Assembly: GCA_035546535.1 (NCBI GenBank)
Contig: DASZWQ010000003.1
Span: forward strand, 1 to 39,480
Length of the DNA stretch: 39,480 nucleotides
Direction of reading: 5' to 3'
Source: Pirellulales bacterium
GTDB lineage: Bacteria > Planctomycetota > Planctomycetia > Pirellulales > JACPPG01
Positions within the stretch are counted from its first letter, which is position 1. Every line of letters begins with the position of its first letter. The translations under genes and the position numbers were made by a program. Below, in pieces: positions 25,473-30,802 of this stretch. The notes beneath the pieces were generated by a model. That model had not been told where the DNA came from and ran no database searches. It saw nothing but the letters and a program-made list of their open reading frames with translations.

Positions 25473-26939
25473 ATGTCGTCACGCTCTCGCACGTCCCTCT
25501 CGCGCCGCAAATTTCTCGAAGACTCGATGCTCGCCGCGGCCGCGGCCGTTGCCGCGGGAGGCGTCGCCCATGTTCATGCCGAGGAAGCGGCGCCGGCCAG
25601 CAAGAGCCCTAACGAAAAACTGGGCGTGGCGTGCGTCGGCGTGCGCGGCCAGGGAAACAGTCACCTCGGCGCGTACTCGAGGCGTCCTGATACCGAAGTT
25701 TTGTACGTGTGCGACGTCGACGAGAGCGTCGGCCAGCAGCGCGTCAAGGAAGTGGCCGCTCGGCAGGGACGCGCCCCGAAGTACGTCCAGGACCTGCGGC
25801 AAATGCTCGAGGACAAATCGGTCGACATCGTAACCACGGCCACGCCCAATCACTGGCACGCGCTGGTGGCGATTTGGGCCATCCAGAACGGCAAGGACGT
25901 GTACGTCGAAAAGCCGGTGAGCCACAACGTCAGCGAAGGTCGACGCATCGTCGATGCCGCGCGCAAGTACAACCGAATCTGCCAGACCGGCACGCAGTGC
26001 CGCTCGATGAAGGGCTCGATCGATGCCATCAAGTACGTTCACGAAGGCAAGATCGGCAAGCTCTCGATCGCCCGCGGTCTGTGCTACAAGTCGCGCCCTT
26101 CGATCGGGCCGAAAGGCGATTACCCGATTCCCGCCAGCGTGAACTACGACCTCTGGTCAGGCCCCGCGCCGGTCAAGCCGCTCACGCGCGAGAAGCTGCA
26201 CTACGACTGGCACTGGATGTGGGATTACGGCAACGGCGACCTGGGGAACCAGGGCATTCATCAAATGGACCTGGCCCGCTGGGGCCTGGGCGCCAAGACG
26301 CTCAGCACCGAAGTCGTCAGCTACGGCGGGCGCTTGGGCTACGAAGATGCCGGCGAGACGGCCAACACGCAGACCATCATTCACGACTACGGCGATCAGC
26401 AACTCGTCTTCGAAGTACGCGGCCTGCCGACTGAGCCGCTGCGCGGCGCAAAGGTGGGCGTGATCTTCGAAGGCGCCGACGGTTTCGTGGTGCTCACCGA
26501 GTACACGGCCGGCGCCGCCTTTGATCTCAAGGGAAACAAGGTCGCCGAATTCCAGGGAGGTGGCGATCACCACGGCAATTTCCTGAAGGCCGTGCGCAGT
26601 CGTAACCCGGCCGACCTTAACGCCGATATTCTCGAAGGGCATCTGTCGAGCGCCCTGTGCCACATGGGCAACATCTCGTACCGCTTGGGCACGCAAGAGC
26701 CGCTTCGGCAAGTCGAAATGCGGCTGGCCGGCAACGACGACGCGATCGACACCTTCGAGCGCTTCAGCGACCACTTAAAGAGTAACGGCGTCGATATCGA
26801 CAAGGCGCAAATCGGCTACGGCCGCGAATTGCACTTCGACATCGACGACGAGCGCTTCGTCAACGATTCGCAAGCCGACGCGATGCTGACGCGTGAATAC
26901 CGCGCCCCGTTCATCGTGCCGCCCGCCGGGCGCGTTTAG
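25473..26939 (+). CDS. TAT-exported Gfo/Idh/MocA family oxidoreductase
   Basis: 488 residues. The twin-arginine signal is LSRRKFLEDSMLAAAAAVAAGG. The N-terminal Rossmann domain has VACVGVRGQGNSHLGAY and CDVDE, and the family signature EKPVSHNVSEGRRIVDAARKYN includes the catalytic-region Glu-Lys-Pro. The C-terminal domain has the HWMWDYGNGDLGNQGIHQMDLARW stretch typical of planctomycete members. It probably oxidises a sugar or inositol derivative with NAD(P) carried through export; the substrate is unknown. GGAG lies about 10 bases before the ATG. It is monocistronic, with palindromic repeat 26953-26997 after its stop. Confidence 0.93.
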   Translation: MSSRSRTSLSRRKFLEDSMLAAAAAVAAGGVAHVHAEEAAPASKSPNEKLGVACVGVRGQGNSHLGAYSRRPDTEVLYVCDVDESVGQQRVKEVAARQGRAPKYVQDLRQMLEDKSVDIVTTATPNHWHALVAIWAIQNGKDVYVEKPVSHNVSEGRRIVDAARKYNRICQTGTQCRSMKGSIDAIKYVHEGKIGKLSIARGLCYKSRPSIGPKGDYPIPASVNYDLWSGPAPVKPLTREKLHYDWHWMWDYGNGDLGNQGIHQMDLARWGLGAKTLSTEVVSYGGRLGYEDAGETANTQTIIHDYGDQQLVFEVRGLPTEPLRGAKVGVIFEGADGFVVLTEYTAGAAFDLKGNKVAEFQGGGDHHGNFLKAVRSRNPADLNADILEGHLSSALCHMGNISYRLGTQEPLRQVEMRLAGNDDAIDTFERFSDHLKSNGVDIDKAQIGYGRELHFDIDDERFVNDSQADAMLTREYRAPFIVPPAGRV

Positions 26940-27035: not shown

Positions 27036-28154
27036 CTACCCCGCTTCGCGCCGCTCGACCGGCGCACCGGCCGGCTTGCGCCCCCAGTGTGGGCCCGGAA
27101 TGATCTGCCGCACCGGCGCCACTGTCGGACCGACGGGCCCCTCGGGCGTGCCGTCCCAGGCATGTCGGGCCATCTTGGCCATGATGCGCTCGGCAACGTC
27201 GACCGCGTCGCGGCCGGCTTCGCCCGGCACTTGGGGCATGCGCCCCGACCGAATGCTGTCGGCAAAATCGACGAGCTCAGCGGTGATCGCGTCGCGCGGC
27301 TCGATCGTCATTTGCTCGATCGGCAAGTGATCCGCCAGCAGCCGGTCCTTAAGCGCCGACCGCTCGGCCATCGACAGTCGTTCGATATCCAGCTCGCGAC
27401 GCACGATCGATTCGCTAGGTCGCACAAGCGCCACCGTCCGCGTCGTGAAATCAAGGCTCGCCAGCGCCCGGCTCGACCAGATATCCATCGTGCGGGCCGG
27501 CAGACGGCTGGCACGCGACGCGCTCAATTCGGCCACGCAGCCATTCTCGAACGACAACCGCGCGTTGGCCACGTCCTCGTGCTGACCGAAAAGGGCCAGG
27601 CCGATTGCTTCGACCTGCCGTAGCGGCGAACGCACCAGCGACAACACCAGATCGATATCATGAATCATCAAGTCCATGACCACGCCGATATCGGTCGAGC
27701 GAAACGAAAAGCCCGAGCGGCGCACGGCCGTGACGTACTTCGGCGTGGCCAGATGCGGCAGTGCCGCGGCGAAGGCCGGATTGAATCGTTCGACGTGTCC
27801 TACTTGCAGGACAGTTCCTTGCCGGCGCGCGGCGTCGACCAGCTCGCACGCTTCGACGTACGTGCTGGCCAGCGGCTTTTCGACGAGCAGGTGAACGCCC
27901 CGCTCGATCAGTTCGCCGGCCACCATGTGATGAAAACGGGTGGGCGTGGCAATGATCGCCGCGTCGATATTTCCCGAAAGCTCGCGCGGGTCGCGATAGC
28001 CGGGCACGCCATAGGCGGCGGTCGCCTGCGCCAGGTTCTCGGCGATTGGATCGACCAGGCCGACCAGCGAGAATTGCGGCAGGCCGGCCAGAATCCGGGC
28101 GTGGATTTTTCCCAGATGGCCGACACCAACGACGGCCACGTTGAGCGGTTTCAA
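27036..28154 (-). CDS. Gfo/Idh/MocA oxidoreductase coupled to lpxA (GnnA-like candidate)
   Basis: 372 residues and no signal peptide, so cytosolic. The Rossmann motif VAVVGVGHLGKIHARIL, EKPLASTYVEACELVDAARRQG, GHVERFNPAFAAALPHL and DLMIHDIDLVLSLV are visible. The start is TTG 28154, which overlaps the lpxA stop in a TTGA; GGAGGAG lies 6 bases before it, a strong ribosome binding site. Position and type match GnnA, which oxidises the 3-hydroxyl of UDP-GlcNAc as the first step to 3-amino lipid A in some bacteria. GnnA needs the aminotransferase GnnB, and no such gene is in the window. Alternatively it modifies another sugar nucleotide. The C-terminal 45 residues are Pro/Arg-rich and unlike the family. 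Confidence 0.88.
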   Translation of the reverse strand: MKPLNVAVVGVGHLGKIHARILAGLPQFSLVGLVDPIAENLAQATAAYGVPGYRDPRELSGNIDAAIIATPTRFHHMVAGELIERGVHLLVEKPLASTYVEACELVDAARRQGTVLQVGHVERFNPAFAAALPHLATPKYVTAVRRSGFSFRSTDIGVVMDLMIHDIDLVLSLVRSPLRQVEAIGLALFGQHEDVANARLSFENGCVAELSASRASRLPARTMDIWSSRALASLDFTTRTVALVRPSESIVRRELDIERLSMAERSALKDRLLADHLPIEQMTIEPRDAITAELVDFADSIRSGRMPQVPGEAGRDAVDVAERIMAKMARHAWDGTPEGPVGPTVAPVRQIIPGPHWGRKPAGAPVERREAG

Positions 28155-28957
28155 GCGGCTCTCCTCCGCTCGCGAGCGCGGCCGTGCTTACCTTGCTGCT
28201 GCTGCTCGACGAAACTGAGCAGGTTTTGTACCTCGGGCGTGACCAGGTTGTTGCCGCGCAAGATTTCGCGGGCATGCTCCAGGCCTACCTTCGCGCGGAA
28301 CAACAGCCGATGCGCTTCGGCCAGGCTGTCGATCGACTCGGAGGAGAAATCCTTGCGCTTGAGCGCGACGACGTTGATGCACCGTGGCCGCGTGGGGTGT
28401 CCGTCGACCAGCATGTACGGCGGAACGTCGTGCAGCACCCGGCTCATGCCCGCCACGAAGCTGTAGGAGCCGATCGTGGCGTAATGGTGCACGCCGACTC
28501 CGCCCGAGATCGAGGCGTAATCGTGAACGTGTACATGGCCGCCCAAGAGCGTGCCGTTGGCCATGATGATGTGATCGCCGACGCGGCAATCGTGGGCCAC
28601 GTGCGAGCAAGCCATGAAGAAGTTGTTGTTGCCGACCGAGGTGACGCCGTCTTCCTTCTCGGTGGCGCGGTTGATCGTGACGCCTTCGCGAATGACGTTC
28701 GCATCGCCGATCGAGACCTGCGTGTCACTCCCCCGGTAGCTGATATCCTGCGGCTCGCCGCCGATAACCACGCCCGGATAGATGTGGTTGTTCTGGCCGA
28801 TGGTGACGTGACCCATGATGGTCACGTTGTTCTCCAGCCGCGTCCCGCGTCCGATGCGGACGTGGGGGCCGATGACGCAGAAAGGCCCGATTTCGACGTC
28901 GACGTCGATTTCGGCGCGGGCGTCGATCGCGACGTGTTCCGAGACGTAGGTTGCCAT
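28151..28957 (-). CDS. lpxA: UDP-N-acetylglucosamine acyltransferase LpxA
   Basis: The first enzyme of lipid A synthesis, transferring a 3-hydroxyacyl chain from ACP to UDP-GlcNAc (or its 3-amino analogue). 268 residues. Hexapeptide repeats of a left-handed beta-helix run from about residue 5 to 185 (IGPFCVIGPHVRIGRGTRLENNVTI). The catalytic His lies in SHVAHDCRVG, and GHVHVHDYASISGG and HDVPPYMLVDGHPTRPRCINVVALKR complete the active-site and C-terminal helical regions. E. coli has GNHATPFGVN at the latter place, so the donor pocket differs. It follows lpxC after 130 bases and overlaps the next gene by TTGA. Confidence 0.95.
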   Translation of the reverse strand: MATYVSEHVAIDARAEIDVDVEIGPFCVIGPHVRIGRGTRLENNVTIMGHVTIGQNNHIYPGVVIGGEPQDISYRGSDTQVSIGDANVIREGVTINRATEKEDGVTSVGNNNFFMACSHVAHDCRVGDHIIMANGTLLGGHVHVHDYASISGGVGVHHYATIGSYSFVAGMSRVLHDVPPYMLVDGHPTRPRCINVVALKRKDFSSESIDSLAEAHRLLFRAKVGLEHAREILRGNNLVTPEVQNLLSFVEQQQQGKHGRARERRRAA

Positions 28958-29087
28958 GAACGATCAGCTCCGCGCATCCGGCGTCGGCCGAGCGAAGGTC
29001 TGATCGCCGGCCGCGTCGAGACAATTCGAAAAAAGATTCCCTATTTTCGTCGATCCACGCTGAGCCCTTGGCATCGACCGTCACAGC

Positions 29088-29963
29088 CTAGGCCGAACGG
29101 CGATGAGCCACGAGCATGTCACCCTCTTGCAAAAGCACACGCACCAATTCCGCGTTGAGTCGATGCCCGCTGCGATGCGCGACGAAGTGCCCAATCAGAT
29201 CGCACCCGGCCAGCGCCAGGTCGCCCACCAGGTCGAGCGCTTTGTGCCGGACGCATTCGTCGCGGTAGCGCAATTCGTTGTCGATCGGCCCGTCGCCGTC
29301 GAAGATCAGCAAATCCTTGACCGAAGCCCGCCGGCCTAACCCTTGCGCCACCAGCCAATCGGCTTCGCTCTTGAGCATGAACGTTCGGCTGGGGGCCAGC
29401 TCGCGCTGGAACGAGTCGGGCGTAATCGGCATGGTCAGCGTCTGGCGGCCGATCGCGTTGCCCGATCCGTAGTCGATGCGAAACTTGATCGACATACCGG
29501 GGCCGGCCGAGGGGCGCGCCTCGATCCAACTGTCGATGTCACCCAGCCGCGTTACCTCGCGCACGACAAGCGCGTTGCGCAGCGAGTTTTGCGTGACCAT
29601 GCCGGCGGCCACGAGCGCCTCGACAAACGGCTGGCTCGATCCGTCGCAGCCGGGCATTTCCACGGTATCGACCCACACTTCGCAATTGTCGATCCGCAAG
29701 CCGGCCAGCGCCGCCATGATGTGCTCGACCATCTCGACACTCGCGCTACCGGCACGCAAGGTCGTGCGGCGCGGCGTCTCGACCCGCTGAGCGACCGTGG
29801 CCGGAATCCGCTGCGGCTTGGCCAGATCGCCACGCACGAAGATCACGCCGGTATCGGGCGGGGCCGGACGAAACTCGACCCGCACGTCCTTGCCGCTCCA
29901 ATAACCGAAACCTTCGACAACCGCCGGTTTTTCGATCGTACGCTGCTGTCTGGGAATGTACAT
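29088..29963 (-). CDS. lpxC: UDP-3-O-acyl-N-acetylglucosamine deacetylase LpxC
   Basis: The zinc-dependent committed step of lipid A synthesis. 291 residues from ATG 29963; 14 further codons are open upstream, but the family begins with an RQQRTI-type sequence as here. Zinc and catalytic residues are visible: Glu-His in MVEHIMAALAGL (about 78), and His and Asp in VRHKALDLVGDLALAG (about 239-244). GHFVAHRSGHRLN carries the second active-site His, and MPGCDGSSQPFV and SRTFML complete the pattern. It stands alone, unlike the LpxC-FabZ fusions of some phyla. No lpxD or fabZ lies in the window. Downstream of the OmpH-like gene and probably in one operon with it and lpxA. Confidence 0.95.
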   Translation of the reverse strand: MYIPRQQRTIEKPAVVEGFGYWSGKDVRVEFRPAPPDTGVIFVRGDLAKPQRIPATVAQRVETPRRTTLRAGSASVEMVEHIMAALAGLRIDNCEVWVDTVEMPGCDGSSQPFVEALVAAGMVTQNSLRNALVVREVTRLGDIDSWIEARPSAGPGMSIKFRIDYGSGNAIGRQTLTMPITPDSFQRELAPSRTFMLKSEADWLVAQGLGRRASVKDLLIFDGDGPIDNELRYRDECVRHKALDLVGDLALAGCDLIGHFVAHRSGHRLNAELVRVLLQEGDMLVAHRRSA

Positions 29964-30052
29964 CAGGCTGGCCAAAGCAATCGGGGACCCGGATGAAAAA
30001 TCCAACGAGAGTTGTTCGCCCGGCCGCCCTCGCGGCGCGGGCTGACGAGCTG

Positions 30053-30802
30053 TTAGCGACGTGGCGGTTGTTGCACACCCGGGCGCTGAGCGGCAGGATT
30101 CGTCCCCGCGGCGCCGCGCGGCTGCTGGGCCTTCATCCGGTCGAGAATGATCGGCGTGATGTCGACGACCGGGTTGTAATACAGCACCATCTTCTGCATC
30201 TCGCGCATGATCTCTTCTGGATTGTCCTTGTTGGCTTCATCACCATTGAACTTCAGGACGAGCGTGATGCGGTTGGCTTCGGCGTAGTAACGGACTTCGG
30301 CCAGGATCGACTGGTAGACTTCGTAGTAAATCTTGGCTTCCGCCTCTTGGAACTTCTTCTTCGTGATGTTGACGTCCACGCTCAGGCCGGCCTGCCGCTT
30401 GGTGATTTCTTCTTCCAGCTTCTTGAAGTCGGGGCTGCCCCGATTCAGGTCGTCGAGTTGCACCATCAACTTTTGAATCTCATCGCGCTTGATTTTCAGG
30501 GCGTTCTCCGCCCCTTCCGCTTCGCGGCGCAATTCTTCCAAGCGGTGGTTGAAGCCGCCATGATTCTTGAGCACGTAGGGCAGGTCGATCAGGGCCACGC
30601 CACCCGGAACGGCGCCGCCGTGCTGCGCAGCCGCATGGTGAGCGGCGCCGCCCGCGGGCGCACCGCCTGCCGGCGGCGTCGCGTTCCGCGGAGGTTGCTG
30701 CGGCGGTTGACCCGCCGGTTGTTGCTGGGAATGGGCCGTGCTGGTGAGGGCCAGCGCCGTGAACAGAGCCGCGAACGTACCTCGGCAAAGTGATTTGGCC
30801 AC
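30053..30802 (-). CDS. OmpH/Skp-like periplasmic chaperone
   Basis: 249 residues from GTG 30802, with AAGGAG nine bases upstream. The signal peptide (about 1-25, ending AHSQQQ) is followed by a low-complexity Pro/Gln/Gly/His segment (26-68) and then the OmpH domain: VALIDLPYVLKNHGGFNHRLEELRREAE and a long coiled coil to about 200, ending in the strand-forming IYYEVYQSILAEVRYYAEANRITLVL. Skp-type trimers hold unfolded outer-membrane proteins in the periplasm. A Pro/Gln/Arg-rich tail ends the protein. First gene of the lipid A block, a frequent position in diderm bacteria. No bamA or lpxD is seen. Confidence 0.9.
   Translation of the reverse strand: MAKSLCRGTFAALFTALALTSTAHSQQQPAGQPPQQPPRNATPPAGGAPAGGAAHHAAAQHGGAVPGGVALIDLPYVLKNHGGFNHRLEELRREAEGAENALKIKRDEIQKLMVQLDDLNRGSPDFKKLEEEITKRQAGLSVDVNITKKKFQEAEAKIYYEVYQSILAEVRYYAEANRITLVLKFNGDEANKDNPEEIMREMQKMVLYYNPVVDITPIILDRMKAQQPRGAAGTNPAAQRPGVQQPPRR

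Follow-up and report, generated by a model that had tools for sequence, protein, structure and literature searches.

The source bacterium, a member of the Pirellulales, and most of its phylum probably make 3-amino lipid A, because a relative of the UDP-GlcNAc 3-dehydrogenase GnnA is encoded adjacent to lpxA and a likely aminotransferase partner is encoded at a distant site. The GnnA-like gene lies in a 39,480-nt stretch of DNA (assembly GCA_035546535.1, contig DASZWQ010000003.1, positions 1 to 39,480 of the forward strand), referred to below as the window. The GnnA/GnnB pathway is already established in several alphaproteobacteria as well as in Acidithiobacillus ferrooxidans, Leptospira and Campylobacter; the present analysis adds its apparent spread through the planctomycetes and an unlinked candidate GnnB clade common to several phyla. 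An interpretation along these lines had been offered in a preliminary description of this DNA and, taken as a whole, is partly supported by the analysis presented here.

Gene order in the lipid A block

On the minus strand, the block has the order skp/ompH, lpxC, lpxA and a Gfo/Idh/MocA gene, with the open reading frames and the Pfam and TIGR matches agreeing with the order first proposed. The gene at the head of the block, skp/ompH (30053..30802, minus strand), encodes a periplasmic chaperone-like protein (Pfam OmpH, 52 bits). It is followed on the same strand by lpxC (29088..30005, start tentative), encoding UDP-3-O-acyl-GlcNAc deacetylase (TIGR00325, 209 bits, above the cut-off; Pfam LpxC, 289 bits), and by lpxA (28151..28957), encoding the acyltransferase for UDP-GlcNAc or UDP-GlcNAc3N (TIGR01852, 300 bits, above the cut-off). 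The last gene, denoted gnnA (27036..28154, minus strand), encodes a 372-aa Gfo/Idh/MocA oxidoreductase that is probably a UDP-GlcNAc 3-dehydrogenase. Reading of the sequence also bears out the reported translation signals: the TTG start of gnnA (28154-28152) overlaps the lpxA stop (28153-28151) in a 4-nt TTGA (28151..28154, minus strand), and a Shine-Dalgarno-like GGAGGAG (28161..28167, minus strand) is found 6 nt 5´ of the start.

Searching the whole genome gave a single LpxA match at E 1e-20, and lpxB and kdtA are each present in single copy elsewhere in the genome. SBP_bac_10/DUF1559, a planctomycete signature, had 44 matches in the genome versus none in 14 control genomes. The window also encodes another Gfo/Idh/MocA protein (25473-26939, plus strand; PF19051, glycoside 3-dehydrogenase-like), which bears a TAT-like leader; its gene is convergent to gnnA and its function is unrelated.

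The oxidoreductase as a candidate GnnA

A tree, the predicted fold and conserved gene order support the assignment of the 27036-28154 protein to GnnA, as a candidate UDP-GlcNAc 3-dehydrogenase, in keeping with the family first suggested for it. By sequence, the best PDB match was 7bvj (155 bits; runner-up, 67 bits), which together with 7bvk is titled UDP-N-acetylglucosamine 3-dehydrogenase GnnA, from A. ferrooxidans. The same two entries were the best fold match of a predicted model (pLDDT 89.4), with Z 41.2 and rmsd 1.6 over 301 residues at 36% identity, while the next protein had Z 36.2 and the next matches were at 22-24% identity. In a tree of 125 proteins, the window protein clustered with GnnA rather than away from it, in one clade with 7bvj, the gnnA genes that adjoin aminotransferase genes and the planctomycete copies. 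Three outgroup proteins fell outside this clade, and since this outgroup is small and long-branched, the inner branching should not be over-read. The motifs E92 K93 P94, with the catalytic EKP lysine, and M163 I164 H165 D166 (MIHD) are invariant in 53 sequences. The best NCBIfam match, the archaeal UDP-GlcNAc 3-dehydrogenase NF040723, scored 170.5 bits, far under its curated cut-off of 450. The UDP-GlcNAcA 3-dehydrogenase WlbA (3q2k) was rejected as the closest enzyme, given that its sequence score (36 bits) and its fold score (Z 35.0 at 21% identity) were both well below those of GnnA.

Conservation of the lpxA-gnnA linkage

The start-stop overlap of gnnA and lpxA is peculiar to the source genome and adds little as evidence. 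The four-base overlap is local while the neighborhood is conserved: as a rule, planctomycetes have lpxA and gnnA adjacent but without overlap at the start codon. For 97 planctomycete genomes with both genes among the matches listed, gnnA was directly downstream of lpxA in 76 (gap of at most 252 nt), farther off but on the same contig and strand in 9 (within about 3 kb), and elsewhere in 12. Similarly, of the 29 planctomycete loci whose LpxA matched best, 26 had gnnA downstream, and in 23 loci retrieved from other phyla lpxA was on the same strand and no more than 1.1 kb upstream of gnnA.

In three relatives of the same order (genomes G121, G205 and G167; loci L151, L152 and L153), the block reads skp-lpxC-gnnA with no lpxA between lpxC and gnnA; lpxA is found elsewhere, is divergent, and is just 38-45% identical. 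Loss, a move or replacement of lpxA are all possible for these blocks. At the loci of family f6 (L190, L191, L192 and L194), GnnA is retained and adjoins neither lpxA nor lpxC.

A candidate GnnB encoded elsewhere in the genome

The preliminary description had found no GnnB-type aminotransferase in the window. No gnnB was seen beside lpxA-linked gnnA in the planctomycete loci read. The genome as a whole encodes eight full-length DegT aminotransferases, one of which, on contig C189 (G000:C189:16648-17898, minus strand), is a candidate GnnB; with gnnA on contig C3, the two genes are not adjacent. For every DegT in the gnnA loci retrieved from other bacteria, the best match in the source genome was the C189 DegT, mostly at 42-49% identity. 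In DegT trees, the C189 protein and its planctomycete orthologs were sister to the gnnA-adjacent aminotransferases, and the other seven DegTs of the genome fell outside. When WbpE was added, it joined the C189 DegT clade first (support of 90). Judged from these trees, WbpE and the gnnA-adjacent aminotransferases are at about the same distance from the C189 clade, which makes the identity of the partner less sure. With WbpE branching there, the protein may be GnnB, may be WbpE-like, or may serve both functions; on sequence grounds, we consider GnnB activity likely.

The C189-type DegT occurs widely, usually as a single match in a genome. Of 40 genomes of other phyla picked for having gnnA without a clear neighboring aminotransferase, 37 had a homolog at E 1e-70, several of these at 50-56% identity. 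Across 246 planctomycete genomes, a DegT match was found in 170 of the 187 with GnnA versus 28 of the 59 without, counts that ignore kinship and use a threshold (E 1e-80) that also lets in other DegT subfamilies. Conserved neighbors of the C189-type gene were sought in planctomycetes and none were found. Each of the two proteins also occurs without the other: four genomes of family f6 have GnnA and no DegT of the C189 clade, the full DegTs checked falling outside the GnnB-like clades, and G126 and some relatives have the C189-type DegT without GnnA. In three Gemmatimonadota loci (L210, L211 and L212), a DegT of the planctomycete-type clade has a distant Gfo protein nearby, as well as a second DegT fragment, in what may be a polysaccharide cluster. 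A candidate GnnB clade of this kind would escape searches confined to the neighbors of gnnA.

LpxA and residue 200

Leptospira makes 3-amino lipid A, while E. coli, Proteus, Acinetobacter, Burkholderia and Helicobacter pylori have glucosamine-type lipid A; E. coli LpxA accepts both UDP-GlcNAc and UDP-GlcNAc3N. The window LpxA retains the catalytic His125 as well as Gln73, and the reported difference of its donor loop from E. coli is real: at position 200 (E. coli numbering), it has Val where E. coli, Proteus, Acinetobacter and Burkholderia have Glu and H. pylori has His. Leptospira and Campylobacter LpxA, like the window enzyme, have Val. The references for these two were 3hsq (Leptospira; matched by the query sequence at 577 bits over the full length, with two letters differing) and 3r0s (Campylobacter; 582 bits, full length, identical), and PMC8036547 cites the gnnA and gnnB genes of Campylobacter. 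All 29 planctomycete LpxA compared, of which 26 had gnnA downstream, carry V, I or L at position 200; among the gnnA-linked LpxA of other phyla, 21 of 23 carry V or I. A preference of Val200 enzymes for the 3-amino donor is suggested by this pattern, which is a correlation of residues on few characterized enzymes.

Position 99 was rejected as a donor marker because H. pylori, with glucosamine-type lipid A, also carries Asn there. We also noted an Ectothiorhodospiraceae genome with two lpxA genes, one in an lpxA-gnnA-gnnB arrangement with Arg200 and the other elsewhere with Glu200 (L071:7219-7989 and L071:11960-12727), a natural test of donor preference.

A proposed pathway and its alternatives

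We therefore consider it quite likely that a GnnA/GnnB pathway distributed over the genome leads to amide-linked lipid A in the source bacterium. GnnA would oxidize UDP-GlcNAc at C3 with NAD, and the unlinked C189 DegT would then aminate the ketone to give UDP-GlcNAc3N. LpxA, probably translated from the same mRNA as GnnA, would move a 3-hydroxyacyl chain onto the new amine, after which LpxC and the later enzymes would proceed as usual. The predicted product is lipid A with amide-linked primary chains at C3 and C3'.

An unlikely, though not negligible, alternative is that GnnA is real while the C189 DegT is a WbpE-like surface-polysaccharide enzyme aminating UDP-3-keto-GlcNAcA, with the true GnnB being another of the eight DegTs or with one DegT serving both pathways. 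The position of WbpE beside the C189 clade, the Gemmatimonadota loci with a distant Gfo protein and the genomes that have the DegT without GnnA would all fit. However, one would expect to find the gene for a polysaccharide enzyme within a cluster, and the planctomycete gene lacks conserved neighbors; moreover, it is widespread and mostly single, and the other seven DegTs of the genome are farther from the gnnA-adjacent enzymes.

Somewhat less probable again is a shift of function in the planctomycete GnnA-like protein, whose substrate would then be a different UDP-sugar or lipid A precursor, with no 3-amino lipid A being made. The protein is just 36% identical to the solved GnnA and scores under the archaeal NCBIfam cut-off, and the f6 genomes keep the gene without lpx linkage or a C189-clade DegT, yet the conserved motifs, the clade shared with gnnB-linked GnnA, the phylum-wide linkage to lpxA and LpxA residue 200 all argue against such a shift. 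Given the size of the superfamily in planctomycetes and the unrelated member at 25473-26939, a generic Gfo/Idh/MocA sugar dehydrogenase could in principle have come to lie beside lpxA by chance. We rejected this highly improbable explanation on the adjacency in 76 of the 97 genomes; the clade, the fold ranking and the finding of just one match to the protein in its own genome at E 1e-50 also speak against it.

If the distributed pathway operates, amide-linked 3-amino lipid A might be what most planctomycetes and several other phyla ordinarily produce, made through lpxA-linked GnnA and an unlinked GnnB sister clade found in Planctomycetota, Desulfobacterales, Nitrospirota, Gemmatimonadota and others. 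Given the spread over these phyla, the 3-amino chemistry may be old among outer-membrane bacteria; we see about equal grounds for accepting and for doubting this broader reading. A literature search, mostly short of subscription journals, found no paper on the structure of the planctomycete lipid A backbone. In the main text of a study of Planctopirus limnophila, almost all of lpxABCDKL are reported as essential, and orthologs of gnnA and the DegT gene are not named in that text (PMC10632474). The gene evidence amounts to a clear, testable prediction for planctomycete lipid A and suggests that the 3-amino form extends far beyond the species for which measurements exist.

Comparison with known systems

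With the A. ferrooxidans GnnA/GnnB system (7BVJ, 7BVK), the source bacterium shares the GnnA clade and fold, the linkage to lpxA and a GnnB-like DegT in the genome. Unlike in A. ferrooxidans, the activity of the planctomycete GnnA, at 36% identity, is predicted, and the aminotransferase gene is unlinked and belongs to a sister clade. Both genes are likewise present in Mesorhizobium loti and Phyllobacterium, where the lipid A structure was measured, whereas the planctomycete case is known from genes and has gnnA linked to lpxA (PMC5644692). Adjacency of gnnA and gnnB is not required, since M. loti has the two at separate sites, neither of them linked to the lpx genes (PMC5644692).

The window LpxA has Val200 and the catalytic His125 in common with LpxA of Leptospira interrogans (3HSQ) and Campylobacter jejuni (3R0S), but has His161 where the reference enzymes have Gln and over its whole sequence matches E. 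coli LpxA better (209 bits) than it does 3HSQ (177 bits). Finally, WlbA/WbpB and WbpE carry out on UDP-GlcNAcA the same two-step C3 chemistry as that proposed here; WlbA is far from the window dehydrogenase (3q2k; 36 bits, 21% identity), whereas WbpE falls close to the clade of the C189 DegT.
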